In this document: positions 10,192 through 17,356 of the stretch, one piece after another
How positions within the stretch are numbered: position 1 is the stretch's first letter
How the letters are laid out: every line of letters starts with the position of its first letter
Assembly (NCBI GenBank): GCA_903944085.1
Contig: CAJAQO010000312.1
Location: 1-37,199, forward strand
Reading direction: 5' to 3'
From: an uncultured Verrucomicrobia subdivision 3 bacterium
Lineage (GTDB): Bacteria > Verrucomicrobiota > Verrucomicrobiia > Limisphaerales > UBA11358
Length of the DNA stretch: 37,199 bases
The notes under the pieces: model-generated
The model's database searches: none
Told to the model about the DNA's origin: nothing
Seen by the model: the letters and a program-made list of their open reading frames with translations, nothing else
Translations under genes and position numbers: made by a program

Positions 10192-10530
10192 ATGAGCCAG
10201 ACACATCCGCTGACCACCACCACGTTTGAGCTGCCGGGTTACCGCATCACCAAATCGTTTGGCGTGGTGCGCGGCATCATGGTCAGGTCGCGCTCGGTCA
10301 TCGGCAACATCGGCGCGAACATTCAGAGCCTCTTCGGCGGCAACATCACGCTTTACACGCAGCTCTGCGAACGCGCGCGGGAAGACACGTTCAATCTCAT
10401 GCTCACGCACGCGGGCGAGCTGGGCGCCAACGCGGTGGTCGGCGTGCGCTATGACGCGACGGAAATCGCGCCGGGCATCACGGAAGTGTTATGCTACGGC
10501 ACGGCGGTGTTTGTGGAGAAGCTGGGCTGA
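10192..10530 (+). CDS. YbjQ/UPF0145 family protein
   Basis: 112 residues from the ATG at 10192. Conserved features of the YbjQ (DUF74, putative heavy-metal-binding) family are visible: [20 protein letters not shown], then [27 protein letters not shown] and [11 protein letters not shown]. Family members are about 105-110 residues and form pentameric barrels; the proposed metal binding is not well proved. A 46-base gap separates it from the DUF2752 gene, and the MMPL gene starts 5 bases after its stop, so it probably belongs to the transporter transcript. Confidence 0.9.
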
Positions 10531-10535
10531 AGGCC

Positions 10536-13298
10536 ATGAAGGCGTTGAGCGCAGACAGTTTTCTGGCCCGGCTGCTGGGCCGGCTGGCGGCAGGCATCTG
10601 CCGCTATCCGCATTGGTTTTTCTGGCCGCAGGTGGTGCTGTTTATTTTATGCGTGGGCTACACCGCCTTGTTTCTGAAAGCGGACATGAACCGCGACAAT
10701 CTGGTGGGGCCGAACCAGAAGTATCATCAGAACTATCTCGCCTTTCAAAAGGAGTTCCCGCAGCCGGACGATTTGGTGGTGGTGGTGGAAAGCGACGACG
10801 CGGAAAAAAACCGGCAGTTCGTCGAGCGCATCGCGGCGAAGATGCAGGCGGAAACGAATTTTTTCCGCGACGTTTTCTACCAGCAAAGCATGTCGGTGAT
10901 GGGCACGAAGGCGCTGCAATTCGCGGAGGTGACGAACTTGGTGGAAACGCGCGACTTGCTGCGCACGGCGATGCCGTTTATCCAGCAGTTCACGGTGACG
11001 ACGAATCTGGTTTCGCTTTTTGCGCAGGTGAACAAGGCGTTTCGCACCGCGAAGCAGGAGGACAATGCGGAAAACAAATCGCTCGTCAAATCGCTGCCGG
11101 CGCTGGGGCGCATCGTGTCGCAGGCGAATGACGCTTTGCTGCGGTCGGGCGTGCCGCCGTCGCCGAACGTCATGACGCTGCTCGGCGGCGACGAGGCGGT
11201 GCTGGCCAGCTACCTGACATTTGCCAACGGCCGGATTTTTGTAGTGACAACGCACGCGCCCGACGATGACAAAAACGGCGACGTCGTGGACCGGTTGCGC
11301 GAGTTGGTCAAACAAACGCGAGTGGAAGTTCCCGGCGTGAATGTCGGCATCACGGGCGAACCGGTGCTGGATTACGACGAGATGACGCAGTCGCAGAAAG
11401 ACACGACGCTCGCGAGCGTCGTGGCGATGGTGCTGTGCGCAATTATTTTCATCTACGGTTATCACGAAACGGGCCGGCCCGTGAAGGCCACCATTTGCTT
11501 GGTGGTCGGACTGGGCTACACGCTGGCGTTCACGACGGCGACGGTCGGGCATTTGAATATTTTGACGATCACGTTTGTGCCGATGCTGATCGGGCTGGCG
11601 ATTGATTATGCCGTGCATTTGATTACGCGCTACGAGGAGGAATTGCACCACGGCAAAACGGAGCAGGAGGCGATTACCAAGGCGATGGTGTTCACCGGCC
11701 AGGGCATTTTCACCGGCGCGCTGACGACGGCGGGCGCGTTTCTGGCGATGTATTTCACCCATTTTCAAGGCATCAAGGAAATGGGCATCATTTGCGGCGG
11801 CGGTCTGCTGGTCTGCCTCGTTCCCATGATGACGCTGCTGCCGGTGCTGCTGCTGCGCGGCCGGCAAAATGTCATTGACCACAGCATCCGCGAAGATGAC
11901 CGGCGGGCGCGGCTCGAAAATTACTGGCTGCAACGGCCCGTGCTGGTGACCGCGATCATTGCGAGCCTGTGCGCGGCGGCGTTGTTCGAGGCACGCAAAG
12001 TGTATTTCGATTACAACCTGATCAAGATGCAAAGCCCGAGTTTGTCGTCGGTGGTGTTTGAACAGACGCTGCTGGATTCGGCGGACAAATCGCTGCTTTA
12101 TGGCGCGGTGCTGGCCGATTCGCTGACGAACGCGGTGGCGCTGCAGGAACAGATCGAGAAGCTGCCGACGGTGGCCGCTACCGAGCCGCCGTTTTACAAA
12201 GATTTTTTGCGGCCGGACCAAGGCGAAAAACGGCGGCTGATTGGCGAAGTGAAAAGCGAAGTGGCGGCGCTCAAATTCAACGCGCCGGATTTGCGGCCCG
12301 TTGATCTTGAAGATTTGAGCGGCACCATTTTTTATACCTCGTGCTATCTCCGGTTAGCCGCGCAAGAGGTCGGCACCAACGATCCGGTGCTGGCCGGACA
12401 ACTGGCTGCGCTGTGCCAGTCCATCACGGATTTGCGCAAGACGATGCTGGCCGGCGACGCGGTCAAGCAGGCGGGATATGCTGCCAAGCTCGCGCAATTT
12501 CAGCAGGCGCTGCTGACGGACCTGCGCGACACGTTTCAGCTTTTGCAGCGGCAGGACGACACCACGCTGCCGCGCGTGGAAGATCTGCCGCCGGCTTTGC
12601 ATCACCGCTTTGTCGGCGTGAACGGAAAATATTTAATCCAGGTTTATCCCAAGCAGGACGTCTGGCAGCGCGCGCCGCAGGAAAAATTCGTCAACGAATT
12701 GCGCACCGTGGACCCGAACGTCACCGGCACACCGGTGCAACTCTACGAATATGAAACGCTGCTGAAGAACAGCTATGTGCAGGCGGCGTGGTATTCGCTC
12801 GCCGCGATCGCGCTCATGGTGCTGTTCCATTTCCGCAGTCTCGGCGCGGTGATTCTGGCATTGATTCCGGTCGGCATCGGCACACTCTGGCTGGCCGGTT
12901 TGATGGGCTGGGCGGGCGTGCCTATTAATTTAGCAAACATCATGACGCTGCCACTAGTCATCGGCATTGGCGTCACCAATGGCATTCACATTTTGAACCG
13001 CTACGCCGAGGAAGGCACGCCGGGAATTCTGTCGCGCAGCACGGGCAAAGCCGTGCTCGTGTCGGGATTGACGGCCATCGCGGGATTCGGCAGTCTGATT
13101 CTCGCGCAGCATCGCGGCATCCGCAGCCTTGGTTTCATCATGTCGGTGGGAATCGCAACGTGCATGATTGCAGGGTTGACCTTTTTGCCGGCGTTGCTGA
13201 GTTTGATTGGCCGCTGGCGGCCGCTCATTAAAAAACCCGATGTCAGCAACTCGCCGACACCGGGTCTAGGAGGAACCGAGGTAAAAAACCTCAATTGA
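10536..13298 (+). CDS. MMPL/RND-superfamily transporter (HpnN-like)
   Basis: 920 residues from the ATG at 10536; an earlier in-frame start would sit inside the YbjQ gene. Architecture is that of two-fold RND exporters. TM1 lies at about 27-47, then a large periplasmic loop runs to about 290. A five-helix bundle follows, holding GLAIDYAVHLITRYEEE (near 350-366). Next comes TM7 near 470 and a second periplasmic loop with helical segments. The last helices contain the matching GIGVTNGIHILNRYAEEG (near 809). The first repeat keeps the aspartate expected of the proton relay; in the second the position is Thr/Asn. The family exports lipids, including hopanoids (HpnN) and mycobacterial lipids. Downstream lie the WPF repeat protein and the Mla genes, supporting a lipid-transport role. 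The substrate is unknown. Confidence 0.88.
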   Translation: MKALSADSFLARLLGRLAAGICRYPHWFFWPQVVLFILCVGYTALFLKADMNRDNLVGPNQKYHQNYLAFQKEFPQPDDLVVVVESDDAEKNRQFVERIAAKMQAETNFFRDVFYQQSMSVMGTKALQFAEVTNLVETRDLLRTAMPFIQQFTVTTNLVSLFAQVNKAFRTAKQEDNAENKSLVKSLPALGRIVSQANDALLRSGVPPSPNVMTLLGGDEAVLASYLTFANGRIFVVTTHAPDDDKNGDVVDRLRELVKQTRVEVPGVNVGITGEPVLDYDEMTQSQKDTTLASVVAMVLCAIIFIYGYHETGRPVKATICLVVGLGYTLAFTTATVGHLNILTITFVPMLIGLAIDYAVHLITRYEEELHHGKTEQEAITKAMVFTGQGIFTGALTTAGAFLAMYFTHFQGIKEMGIICGGGLLVCLVPMMTLLPVLLLRGRQNVIDHSIREDDRRARLENYWLQRPVLVTAIIASLCAAALFEARKVYFDYNLIKMQSPSLSSVVFEQTLLDSADKSLLYGAVLADSLTNAVALQEQIEKLPTVAATEPPFYKDFLRPDQGEKRRLIGEVKSEVAALKFNAPDLRPVDLEDLSGTIFYTSCYLRLAAQEVGTNDPVLAGQLAALCQSITDLRKTMLAGDAVKQAGYAAKLAQFQQALLTDLRDTFQLLQRQDDTTLPRVEDLPPALHHRFVGVNGKYLIQVYPKQDVWQRAPQEKFVNELRTVDPNVTGTPVQLYEYETLLKNSYVQAAWYSLAAIALMVLFHFRSLGAVILALIPVGIGTLWLAGLMGWAGVPINLANIMTLPLVIGIGVTNGIHILNRYAEEGTPGILSRSTGKAVLVSGLTAIAGFGSLILAQHRGIRSLGFIMSVGIATCMIAGLTFLPALLSLIGRWRPLIKKPDVSNSPTPGLGGTEVKNLN

Positions 13299-13431
13299 GA
13301 AGTAAAATACGGGAAAAACAGCCAAAGTCAATATCATTGTTAAAATAGTATTGCATCAGGCAAAAAACCAGATGAATCAACAAGCAATAACGATAAAGCA
13401 AACTACGAGCTGCCAAGCCGGCAGTTCGTTA

Positions 13432-14862
13432 ATGCGCTTTATTTTGACTTTGCTGGTCGCTGGAATGATTAGTCCGATTTTTTCAGCCTGGGCAGCCGAT
13501 CCCGCCATCGGCTTCATTTTTGATCGTTTCCAACTGACGTTCGAGAATGGCTGCCGCACGGAAGCCGCCGGGCCGTTTTATTATTCGCAGCAGACCGATT
13601 CAGAATCCGTCTGGGCCTTGCCGCCGTTTTTTTCCTGCGACCGCAATCCTTCCGTCGAATCGCACGAAGATGATTTTCTTTATCCGCTGCTGTCGCACAT
13701 TCGTTACGGCCACGAACAGCGCTGGCAGTTCGGCCAGTTGATCAGCACCGCCGGCGGTCAGGAGCCAAATGAAACGGACACGAAACGCTTTACGCTTTAT
13801 CCGCTTTATTTTCAGCAGCGCTCGCCGGACACTAATTTGAATTACACGGCCTTCGTGCCGTTTTATGGCCGGCTCAAACACCGACTGTTTCATGATGAAA
13901 TTTATTTCGTCATGTTTCCGTTTTACAGCGAGACGCGCAAACGCGACGTCGTCACCGACAATTATGTTTATCCTTTCGTTTCCATCCGCCGCGGCGACGG
14001 GCTGAACGGCTGGCAGGTCTGGCCGTTCGTCGGGCACGAACACAAGGATGTGACCACGCAGACCAACGGTTTTGGCGACCTCACACTCGTAGCCGGCCAC
14101 GACCAGTCGTTCTATTTCTGGCCGTTTTATTTGAAACAAGACAATGGGGCTGGCACGGAAAACCCGGAGAAATTCCGTGCTTCCATTCCCTTTTTCGTCA
14201 CCAGCCGTTCGCCGCAACATGATTCCACCTCCGTGCTCTGGCCCGTATTCACCTGGATTGACGAGCGCGCGAAAAAAAATCACGAATGGCAGGGGCCGTG
14301 GCCATTCGTGATTTTCGCGCGTGGCGAAGGCAAGCACACCTCGCGCATCTGGCCCGTGTTCAGCGAATCGCGCAACAGCACTAGGGAAAGTGATTCCTAT
14401 CTCTGGCCGCTCTACACGTTCAGCCACGCGCAGTCCGCGCCGCTCGACCAGCAGCGCACGCGGGTGTTGCTCTATCTTTATTCCCGCCTGACGGAAAAAA
14501 ACACCGAGACTGGCGCGGAAAAAACGCGGCTGGATATGTGGCCATTCTTCACCTGGCACCACGATTTCAACGGTAACGAACGCCTGCAAGTGCTCGCGCC
14601 CGTTGAACCGGCGGTGCCCGACAATCGCGGTATCGAGCGCAACTGGTCGCCGCTCTGGTCGTTCTGGCGCGCGGAAGACAACCAGAAAACCGGTGCCAGC
14701 AGCCGGTCGTTATTTTGGAACTTGTATCGCCGCGACCGCGCGCCGGAGCAGAAAAAAGTCTCGCTCCTGTTCGGCCTTTTCCAGTATCAATCAGCCAAGG
14801 AATCGGCGCAGACCAAACTGTTTTATTTCACAGTTTCCCAGGTGCCGCCGCCTAAAAAATAA
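13432..14862 (+). CDS. Exported WPF-repeat protein of unknown function
   Basis: I do not recognise a named family. From the ATG at 13432 the product has 476 residues and a classical signal peptide (MRFILTLLVAGMISPIFSAWA, cut before ADP). ATG 13372 or TTG 13351 in the same frame would only add a polar leader. The mature protein consists of repeated short aromatic strands spaced about 20-40 residues apart: TLYPLYFQQR, TAFVPFYGRL, IYFVMFPFYSE, YVYPFVSIRR, WQVWPFVGHE, FYFWPFYLKQ, VLWPVFTW, GPWPFVIFAR, SRIWPVFSES, SYLWPLYTFS, LDMWPFFTWH, SPLWSFWRAE, LFWNLYRRD. The periodic alternation suggests an outer-membrane or surface beta structure, which is inference. It ends 14 bases before mlaE and follows the MMPL gene, so it may assist envelope lipid transport. 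Confidence 0.8.
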   Translation: MRFILTLLVAGMISPIFSAWAADPAIGFIFDRFQLTFENGCRTEAAGPFYYSQQTDSESVWALPPFFSCDRNPSVESHEDDFLYPLLSHIRYGHEQRWQFGQLISTAGGQEPNETDTKRFTLYPLYFQQRSPDTNLNYTAFVPFYGRLKHRLFHDEIYFVMFPFYSETRKRDVVTDNYVYPFVSIRRGDGLNGWQVWPFVGHEHKDVTTQTNGFGDLTLVAGHDQSFYFWPFYLKQDNGAGTENPEKFRASIPFFVTSRSPQHDSTSVLWPVFTWIDERAKKNHEWQGPWPFVIFARGEGKHTSRIWPVFSESRNSTRESDSYLWPLYTFSHAQSAPLDQQRTRVLLYLYSRLTEKNTETGAEKTRLDMWPFFTWHHDFNGNERLQVLAPVEPAVPDNRGIERNWSPLWSFWRAEDNQKTGASSRSLFWNLYRRDRAPEQKKVSLLFGLFQYQSAKESAQTKLFYFTVSQVPPPKK

Positions 14863-14876
14863 ACCGCGCACAAATC

Positions 14877-15614
14877 ATGTTTGAAAATGTCGGAGAAATC
14901 GTTTTGTTGTTCTGGCGCACGCTGCTGGCTTTGCCGCAGGCGTGGCGGCAGCGGCAAAAAGTTTTCGAGCAGTTTTTCGAGATCGGCAACGCCAGTCTGC
15001 TGATGGTGTGCGTGCTGTCGTTTTTCATCGGTGCGGTCATCGCGTTGCAGACCGGCCCGATTTTGGTGGAACGCAGCCTCGCCAGCGCCGTGGGTGGTGT
15101 GGTGGGCATCGCCATCGCGAAAGAATTGGCGCCGGTGATGATGGCCATTTTGATCGCGGGCCGCATCGGTTCCGCGATGGCGGCGGAAATCGGCTCGATG
15201 CGCGTGTATCAGGAAATTGACGCGCTGCGCACGATGAACATCAATCCGATTCACTATCTCGTGTTGCCGCGGGTGCTGGCCATTGCCTTGGCGCTGCCGC
15301 TGCTGGTCATTTTTTCCATTCTCGTCGGCTGGTTTGGCGGCGCGGTGGTGGCGGATGTCAACCAGCACATGGAAATTCCTTTTCTCGCGTTCTTCTCCGA
15401 TTTAAAAAACATCGTGGAGCTGAAAGACGTGGGCAACGGCGTGTTCAAGAGCTTTTGTTTTGCGATCATCCTTGGCGTGGTGTCATGCCATCAGGGTTTG
15501 ACGACCATCGGCGGTCCGCGCGGCATCGGCCGCTCGGTCACGAAGGCTGTGGTGAACTCCATCGTGCTCATCGTGATTTTTGACTACATCCTCACCCGCT
15601 TTTTGTTGAAATGA
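14877..15614 (+). CDS. mlaE: ABC transporter permease, MlaE family
   Basis: 245 residues, typical of MlaE/YrbE. Inner-membrane permease of the Mla/MCE phospholipid transport complex, which moves lipids between inner and outer membranes. About five hydrophobic helices are visible. The conserved cytoplasmic segment IAKELAPVMMAILIAGRIGSAMAAEIGSMRV and EIDALRTMNINPIHYLVLPRV are family hallmarks, as is CHQGLTTIGGPRGIGRSVTKAVV near the C-terminus. The stop overlaps the start of the ATPase gene by 4 bases (ATGA), so the two are translationally coupled. Confidence 0.95.
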   Translation: MFENVGEIVLLFWRTLLALPQAWRQRQKVFEQFFEIGNASLLMVCVLSFFIGAVIALQTGPILVERSLASAVGGVVGIAIAKELAPVMMAILIAGRIGSAMAAEIGSMRVYQEIDALRTMNINPIHYLVLPRVLAIALALPLLVIFSILVGWFGGAVVADVNQHMEIPFLAFFSDLKNIVELKDVGNGVFKSFCFAIILGVVSCHQGLTTIGGPRGIGRSVTKAVVNSIVLIVIFDYILTRFLLK

Positions 15615-16369
15615 ACGGCGCGAACAATCAAATTTCCGGCGTCAGCCTCGTCGTGCGGGGCCTGCACAAAAGTTTCGGCGGGCAGAAAGTGCTGAATGGC
15701 ATTGATCTGGATGTCCGGCCCGGGGAAATCTTCGTCATCATGGGGCCAAGTGGCAGCGGCAAAAGCGTGCTGCTTAAGCATCTGATCGGCCTGGAAGAAC
15801 CCGATGCGGGCGAAATTCTCATCAACGGCGAATCCATCAGCACGCCGGAAATCGCGGCGAAATATCGCATGGCGCTCGTGTTTCAATCCGGCGCGCTGCT
15901 CAATTCGCTGACGGTCGGCGAAAATGTCGGGCTTTATCTGACCGAGCATCGGCTTAAAACGCCGGCGGAGATTGAAAAAATTGTGGCCGAAAAACTGGAT
16001 GATGTCGGCCTCAAGGACGCGGTGAATAAAATGCCGTCCGAGCTTTCCGGCGGCATGAAAAAGCGCGTTGCCATTGCCCGCGCGCTGGTCATCGAGCCGC
16101 AGATGATCCTTTACGACGAACCCACGAGCGAGTTGGACCCGCTTTCGTCCGTCGTCATCGGCAACGAGATTTTGGAACTCAAGCGCCGCATCCACGTCAC
16201 GTCCCTGGTCGTTTCGCATGACCGCGACTTGGCGTTTGGCGTGGCTGATCGGATCGCGGTCATCGCCGACGGAAAGATTTTGACCGTCGGCACGCCCGAC
16301 GCGGTGAAAAATTTTCCCGACCCGCGCGTGCATGATTTTCTGCACGCGGATTTTGCGCGCCCAAAATAA
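15611..16369 (+). CDS. mlaF: ABC transporter ATP-binding protein, MlaF family
   Basis: 252 residues. Walker A GPSGSGKS at 45-52, signature LSGGMKKRVAIARAL, Walker B MILYDEPTSELDP and the H-loop VVSHD are all intact. The segment RMALVFQSGALLNSLTVGENV is the MlaF/Ttg2A-type Q-loop region. It powers lipid transport by the MlaE permease from the cytoplasmic side. It overlaps mlaE by 4 bases, and mlaD begins 12 bases after its stop. Confidence 0.96.
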   Translation: MNGANNQISGVSLVVRGLHKSFGGQKVLNGIDLDVRPGEIFVIMGPSGSGKSVLLKHLIGLEEPDAGEILINGESISTPEIAAKYRMALVFQSGALLNSLTVGENVGLYLTEHRLKTPAEIEKIVAEKLDDVGLKDAVNKMPSELSGGMKKRVAIARALVIEPQMILYDEPTSELDPLSSVVIGNEILELKRRIHVTSLVVSHDRDLAFGVADRIAVIADGKILTVGTPDAVKNFPDPRVHDFLHADFARPK

Positions 16370-16381
16370 TTTATTTCGTCT

Positions 16382-17356
16382 ATGAAAAATTCACTCGAAA
16401 CCAAACTCGGCATCTTCGTCTTTCTCGCGGTGGTCGCCGCCTGGATCATTGTGGAAACCTTGGGCAGCGTGGACTTGTTCCGCCACGGTTACCGTGTCAG
16501 CGCGCAGTTTGCCACCGTGCAGGATTTAAAGGTGGGCGACCGCGTAAAGATGGCCGGCGTGGAAATCGGCCGCGTGGATGACATCCAGCTCACCGACACC
16601 AAGGTCAGCGTCATAATGAAATTGCGCAACAACGCGCAGGTCAAAACCGACAGCAAGGCTAGCATCAAATTCACCGGCCTCATGGGCCAGAACTTTGTGG
16701 CGATAGACTTTGGTTCGCCGGACCAGCCCCGCGCCAAGGAAGGCACGGAAATCGTCTCCGTGGAACAGCCGGATTTGAGCGCCATCATGACCAAGCTGGA
16801 CGGGGCCGTGGATGGCATCCAGAACATGACCAAGACTTTTGCCAGCGACGACATCCACAATTTATTTGGTCCACTGGGTGAATTTTTCAAGAGCCACAAG
16901 GATGAACTGGCGGCAACGATTGCGAACATCACCAACATCACCGGCCAGGTCGCCTCCGGCCAAGGCACCGTCGGCAAGCTGATTTACGACGACGCGTTGT
17001 ATTCCTCGGTGCTGACCACGGTGAGCAATCTGCAAGGCACCGCCGCATCGGCCAGCGACATGATTGCCTCCATCAAGCTCGTGGTGACCAATGCCAGCGC
17101 CGGCCAGGGCACGATCGGCAAACTGCTGACGGATGAAACGTTGTATCACGCGGCGACTGGATCGATGACGAATCTGAATAGTATCTTGTTCAAGATCAAC
17201 CAAGGCAATGGCACCGTCAGCAAGCTGATCAACGACCAGGAATTTTACAAGAATGCCAAGCTCTCGCTCCAGAAACTCGACAAGGCGGCAGATGGGCTCG
17301 AAGACACCGGTCCGTTAAGCGTCATCGGCATCATGGCAAATCAGTTTGGATTGTAA
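16382..17356 (+). CDS. mlaD: MCE-domain lipid-binding protein, MlaD family
   Basis: 324 residues, longer than E. coli MlaD (about 180). One N-terminal membrane anchor (GIFVFLAVVAAWIIVETLG, about 11-29). The MCE domain lies at about 35-120 (VGDRVKMAGVEIGRVDDI, then SIKFTGLMGQNFVAIDFG). The C-terminal extension carries three copies of a G-x-G-T-[VI]-[GS]-K-L motif followed by a D-x-x-[LF]-Y element, near residues 193, 241 and 275. Helical Asn/Thr-rich stretches separate them. The extension probably forms a helical tunnel or tail in the periplasm, as in other long MCE proteins. MCE proteins assemble as hexamers that carry phospholipids. No mlaB or mlaC is seen next to it. Confidence 0.94.
   Translation: MKNSLETKLGIFVFLAVVAAWIIVETLGSVDLFRHGYRVSAQFATVQDLKVGDRVKMAGVEIGRVDDIQLTDTKVSVIMKLRNNAQVKTDSKASIKFTGLMGQNFVAIDFGSPDQPRAKEGTEIVSVEQPDLSAIMTKLDGAVDGIQNMTKTFASDDIHNLFGPLGEFFKSHKDELAATIANITNITGQVASGQGTVGKLIYDDALYSSVLTTVSNLQGTAASASDMIASIKLVVTNASAGQGTIGKLLTDETLYHAATGSMTNLNSILFKINQGNGTVSKLINDQEFYKNAKLSLQKLDKAADGLEDTGPLSVIGIMANQFGL

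Follow-up and report, generated by a model that had tools for sequence, protein, structure and literature searches.

What does an exported protein of no named family do when its gene stands directly ahead of the genes for a lipid transporter? The question is raised by the window, a stretch of 37,199 nucleotides from an uncultured member of the Verrucomicrobiota, in which the genes for an HpnN-like MMPL protein, the protein under study (hereafter the WPF protein), MlaE, MlaF and MlaD follow one another in this order on the + strand. The MMPL protein that an earlier note on this DNA had placed upstream is indeed encoded there (10491..13298, +; PF03176 E 3.1e-53), with a length of 935 aa rather than 920; this MMPL/RND protein matches the HpnN profile TIGR03480 at E 7.5e-165, but misses its curated cut-off (550.2 bits vs 751.85). 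On the other side lie an MlaE permease (14877..15614, +; PF02405 E 4.2e-71, TIGR00056 over its cut-off), an MlaF-type ABC ATPase (15611..16369, +; PF00005 E 3.1e-34) and a long MlaD of 324 aa (16382..17356, +; PF02470 E 2.8e-19) with a TM helix and an MCE domain as well as a tail of ~190 residues. The joint presence of MlaE, ABC ATPase and MCE-domain MlaD (PF02405, PF00005, PF02470) makes up an MlaEFD set of the MCE-type ABC type, a putative lipid ABC transporter by its domain content.

The open frame at 13432-14862 is present as had been described, 14 bases ahead of mlaE and then mlaF and mlaD, according to ORF calls and Pfam matches. Its translation probably starts at ATG 13372, giving a gene of 13372..14862 (+) and a product of 496 aa in place of the 476 aa counted from ATG 13432, because an ITIK-like stretch encoded upstream of 13432 recurs in the proteins of the same-genus loci L002, L013, L014, L015 and L016, the starts of which were chosen by script. 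The position downstream of the MMPL gene stands, but the gap of 133 bases between the two shrinks to 73 if ATG 13372 is used. Judged from its signal-peptide-like N-terminus, the WPF protein is exported, and by a simple rule 121 of 140 rows of the WPF family have an N-terminal hydrophobic stretch with an AxA-like site after it. A lipobox-like cysteine occurs in just 7 of the 140 proteins and a TM segment later in the chain in none of the 140; attachment to the outer membrane is therefore not evident.

The repeat for which the protein was singled out is real, although the strict pattern [WYF]P[FLV][FYVWL] is found 11 times and not "at least a dozen" times; looser variants exist. The 11 strict motifs span 13681..14550 (+), their first residues ranging from 84 to 370 in the 476-aa form, and compare with 0.34 matches on average, and never more than 4, in 5000 shuffles of the protein. 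Searches by sequence of Pfam, NCBIfam, PHROGs and the PDB gave no match, just as the earlier note could assign the layout to no named family; two matches of the window protein at E about 0.6 were taken as chance. The family profile has no PDB relative by sequence, 0 of 30 members searched against Pfam and NCBIfam gave a match at E 0.01, including matches to the MlaA (PF04333) or MlaC (PF05494) domain, and there was no sequence match to the MORN repeat of Pfam. At the level of titles and abstracts, no published account of the protein was found among the matches listed.

The clearest lead to a function is the company that the gene keeps. With neighbours called by profiles built from these same loci, mlaE lies directly downstream on the same strand in 36/39 loci of the order, 25/25 of the class, 58/62 of other classes of the phylum and 71/79 of the named loci, sets that overlap in part and represent a non-random, better-scoring selection (the order loci L031-L070 from 40 fetched genomes, the phylum loci from 64 of 92 matching genomes outside the class and mostly better-scoring, the named loci the best 80 of 242). 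MlaF and MlaD are next in line in 52/56 and 48/52 testable phylum loci, respectively. The order is kept at low sequence identity to the window protein, which is 21-26% over 16 distant rows and 23-27% over the aligned parts of L100-L128, where MlaE is downstream in 29 of 29 loci. In 15 of 205 testable loci mlaE does not adjoin the WPF gene, and in all seven of these that were followed MlaE is encoded elsewhere in the genome. Homologues scattered without any link to mla or MMPL genes would have spoken against a transport role; in the loci examined the WPF homologues adjoin mlaE across classes. The mla part of the proposed link thus holds, but the MMPL part is weaker, the MMPL gene having been seen as a neighbour only within the order. 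There, profiles place an HpnN-like gene upstream in 23/37 order loci and in 67/75 named order loci (71/76 named loci when called by tblastn). Adjacency to an MMPL gene was rejected as a general rule on a count of 0/57 testable loci of other classes, and no HpnN match was met within the 1.5 kb flanks of L100-L128.

The WPF protein might instead serve the assembly or the structure of the envelope, sharing the operon without a part in lipid transport. On the stretches fetched, large WPF-repeat proteins with lipobox-like N-termini are encoded apart from mla genes; the repeat by itself is therefore not bound to transport. This reading is countered by the adjacency to mlaE at 21-27% identity and the pairing with a long MlaD described below, and we consider it very improbable.

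The large frames (L302:1113-4559, L303:2155-6084, L304:5746-7749, L306:4067-7300, L308:447-2102 and L309:5815-8112) have lipobox-like GC(A/R/S)T and MKGTPFYTGE-like N-termini and make up a wider WPF-repeat group. No MlaE or MlaD is encoded on the stretches fetched around them, and no common neighbour was found among those scanned.

Homologues of the WPF protein were collected within one phylum, Verrucomicrobiota. They are present in 111 of the 117 genomes from the genus and order of the window (window's genome counted), in 76 of 286 genomes sampled from the class (27 of the 76 lie outside the order), and in 118 of 288 genomes sampled from the phylum, a count that includes the window's genome and four weak matches (G470, G482, G491 and G539), that in G470 resembling a lipoprotein paralogue. 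In this phylum sample MlaE was found in 266 and MlaA in 114 of the 288 genomes. Passages of Grasekamp et al. 2023 (PMC10665443) describe MlaABC as mostly proteobacterial, and the presence of MlaA in 114/288 genomes of this phylum is more than that wording suggests. WPF and MlaA occur together in 14 of the 288 genomes vs 46.7 expected (p 1e-16, in a test that ignores kinship), or in 13 vs 45.1 expected after removal of the four genomes with weak WPF matches. The MlaA genomes can be divided into 40 with an MlaA frame under 600 aa, for which the co-occurrence with WPF is 7 vs 16.4 expected (p 9e-4), and 74 with MlaA only in longer frames (600 aa or more), for which it is 7 vs 30.3 (p 1e-11), kinship again being ignored in both tests. 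The avoidance of ordinary-length MlaA is therefore much weaker than the avoidance of all MlaA. Within the family f72, WPF and MlaA replace one another: of its 24 sampled genomes, 18 have WPF only, 5 MlaA only, 1 both and 0 neither (p 1.4e-4). Since 70 of the 288 genomes have neither, MlaE can exist without both WPF and MlaA; WPF was found in 0 of the 20 genomes listed among the 22 that are devoid of MlaE.

Eight of the 14 genomes with both genes were opened. A second EFD+MlaA operon is present in G436, G486 and G508, MlaA is beside an HpnN-profile match in G316, G408, G480 and G551, and in the window's genome MlaA is a hydrolase fusion on another contig; in the other six genomes MlaA is in frames of 684-808 aa. 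The fusion in the window's genome (L209:2746-4779:-, contig C241) joins an MlaA domain (PF04333 E 5.9e-54) to an alpha/beta-hydrolase-like domain (PF00561 E 6.6e-05, just under the cut-off). Such fusions may be common in the phylum, because 74/114 MlaA genomes have MlaA only in frames of at least 600 aa; the one examined is L209. MlaC, which had been noted as missing, has 0 matches to PF05494 in the whole of the window's genome (G000, 96% complete), and the same profile gave matches in the positive controls E. coli and Caulobacter. The WPF gene is a single copy in this genome. Three MlaE matches were found there in all, and a second mlaE-mlaF-mlaD set (L210:5128-7642:+, contig C182), with an MlaD of 328 aa, is without WPF.

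The surroundings of MlaA were compared with those of WPF at 20 MlaA loci from 19 of the 114 genomes, mostly high-scoring. Ten of the 20 are operons of MlaE/F/D with MlaA, and in 10/10 of these MlaD is 147-175 aa long; where the gene that separates MlaD from MlaA was tested, it is MlaC (5/5). On the WPF loci MlaD measures 256-464 aa from the first Met in 156/156 frames (median 324), and MlaA was found on 0/268 such loci, for many of which the flanks extend no further than 1.5 kb, by a profile that recovers all 21 known MlaA. MlaA has an HpnN-profile match as its neighbour in 6/20 of the MlaA loci, and MlaA and WPF therefore share both kinds of neighbour. These six loci (L278, L279, L283, L285, L287 and L288) represent a second context for MlaA besides mlaEFD; in L285 a sixth MlaC lies between MlaA and the HpnN-profile match, and in L278 the MMPL identity of that match was confirmed by Pfam.

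The long MlaD invites comparison with better known transporters. According to passages of Grasekamp et al. 2023 (PMC10665443), MlaD forms a hexamer, and the barrel is entirely lacking on MlaD of the PVC group. AlphaFold2 predicts helices only and no strand for the MlaD tail of the window after residue 126, at a pLDDT mostly under 50, which agrees with the statement in those passages that MlaD of the PVC group has no barrel. The tail also contains three GxGTxGKLxxDxxLY-like repeats (16958-17248 of the window) that are strongly conserved in the order.

The predicted fold of the WPF protein bears on what such a protein might be able to do. From 81 sequences, AlphaFold2 modelled the 476-aa form with a mean pLDDT of 92.4 and a pTM of 0.77 as a signal helix, 45 antiparallel meander strands and one late helix; the strands average 5.9 residues in length and are mostly polar. 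A coevolution analysis of 208 unique sequences plus that of the window placed the centre of 47 of the 60 top short-range couplings on a predicted turn (background 25%), although the two approaches are not fully independent because their sequence sets are partly the same. Both place the W/Y-P-[FLV]-[FY] motifs, which had been read as strands, in turns between strands. Along most of the chain every second turn is formed by a WPF proline and those in between by polar loops. The motifs therefore line up on a single edge of one long sheet, an arrangement that speaks against a barrel crossing the membrane. At 14 of the 16 proline sites, over 209 rows, residues at -2, -1, +1 and +2 of the motif proline are hydrophobic in 90, 90, 100 and 94% and those at -3 and -4 in 70 and 53%, compared with 9-38% for the remaining offsets between -9 and +9. 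This profile favors a sheet that is polar for the most part and hydrophobic along one edge.

We also considered the motif as a bend within a 16-residue strand, and rejected this kinked-strand model because the couplings flank several of the WPF centres as hairpins (156-169, 225-238, 263-278) and far ladders are few, the strongest of them (centre 214) being taken for a local hairpin of greater length. The weak ladder scores (z below 2) at P48, P85, P198, P308, P326, P371 and P407 run counter to the hairpins, as does the finding that only 10 of the 60 top short-range couplings have their centre at a WPF proline or one residue from it (background 9%).

Closure of the sheet is hinted at by a block of long-range coupling, since 8 of the 40 top pairs link residues 57-100 with 385-420 (0.8 expected) and any of 1278 other blocks has at most 4, although the block was chosen post hoc, after the coupling list had been seen, and its lead shrinks to 11 vs 9 elsewhere among the top 150 pairs. 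The block suggests a sheet that closes on itself, and a ring, a spiral or a folded sheet would all be compatible with it.

In comparisons with known structures, Foldseek returned TM-scores of 0.19 or less among the rows listed, three rows having E below 0.001. The best rows of VIA-align were ApoB100 (Z 10.5), the CPAP G-box (9.8), MORN1 (8.4) and OspA (7.7). The last three share with the WPF protein short antiparallel hairpins in series, and the continuous antiparallel meander of short strands found in OspA/MORN-like single-layer sheets is present in the AlphaFold2 prediction; however, they have no sequence match to it, and the OspA/MORN-like comparison (Z 7.4-9.8) covers part of the chain. 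Because the Z values are near the background stated for the tool, the rows serve only as a hint of architecture, and absence from the list does not speak against a family.

These results allow two further readings to be weighed. The WPF protein might be an integral outer-membrane beta-barrel, either a detached version of the Veillonella MlaD barrel or an analogue of plant TGD4/LptD. The place in the operon and the long MlaD would fit, the last strand of some distant members is aromatic, LFWFTL and RFLWFTID being examples, and VIA-align gave porins, VDAC, BamA and LptD at Z 5.7-8.2, with the porin-type entries 8wv0 and 2y0h at an rmsd of 5.2 A. Most other barrel rows have an rmsd of 9-21 A with Z at background level, however, and the 45 predicted strands (mean 5.9 residues) are short for a membrane crossing and mostly polar, with the hydrophobic peak at the turns, so that membrane-spanning strands with a hydrophobic face are not found on the prediction. 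We regard such a barrel as unlikely.

The WPF protein might also stand in for MlaC only, as a soluble extended sheet in the periplasm that serves as scaffold or lipid chaperone, docks on MlaD or peptidoglycan and does not reach the outer membrane. The paucity of lipobox-like cysteines, the absence of TM segments, the OspA/MORN-like rows and the failure to find MlaC in a genome that does have an MlaA-hydrolase fusion are all in its favor, but the W/Y-P-F turns, lined up in a row and hydrophobic in 90-100% at each of four positions, need burial, no lipid groove or pocket is evident in the predicted fold, and WPF avoids MlaA too in the phylum sample. A replacement of MlaC only is unlikely in our estimation, if less so than a barrel.

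The reading that we favor, and hold to be somewhat more likely than not, is that the WPF protein is the exported, dedicated partner of a long-MlaD MlaEFD transporter, in which it does the outer-membrane-side job of MlaA (with MlaC). The avoidance of MlaA, the replacement in f72 and the split of the operons by MlaD length lend support to the role of MlaA/MlaC that the earlier note had suggested for this protein; that role, like the localisation, lipid binding and transport that go with it, is one that we infer. MlaE and MlaF at the inner membrane would drive lipids through the MlaD hexamer, the helical tails of which would reach across the periplasm. The long MlaD would thus be a bridge and the WPF protein its outer end, in place of the MlaC shuttle and the MlaA acceptor; within this one order, it may serve the adjacent HpnN-like exporter as well. 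Such a system would resemble the E. coli Mla system (MlaA-MlaBCDEF) in having MlaE, MlaF and MlaD homologues in one operon with an exported extra component, but it differs by a long MlaD, in that no MlaC was found in the genome and no MlaA in 268 WPF loci, and by an extra protein in first position without similarity to MlaA or MlaC. It is like the MlaEFD of Veillonella parvula, as described in passages of PMC10665443, in its long MlaD and an operon without MlaA/MlaC, and unlike it in that no strand is predicted (at low confidence) in the MlaD tail of the window and that a separate exported protein is encoded. The RND lipid transporters HpnN and BstA (NCBIfam) have their likeness in the upstream MMPL protein, which adjoins WPF in this order but scores below the curated cut-offs and is beside WPF in none of the loci of other classes that could be judged.

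A comparable job at the outer end is done elsewhere by plant TGD4, as it is by MlaA and the Veillonella MlaD barrel. It is conceivable, though on balance doubtful, that the WPF protein is the missing outer-membrane end of barrel-less long-MlaD transporters, invented independently of MlaA and of the Veillonella MlaD barrel. The WPF protein sets apart two designs of Mla operon among those examined in this phylum, which makes the question of shuttle versus bridge testable in close relatives. As to how long-MlaD systems meet the outer membrane, the WPF family is a specific and widespread candidate, with the clear prediction that its members would be the outer-side partners of long MlaD.
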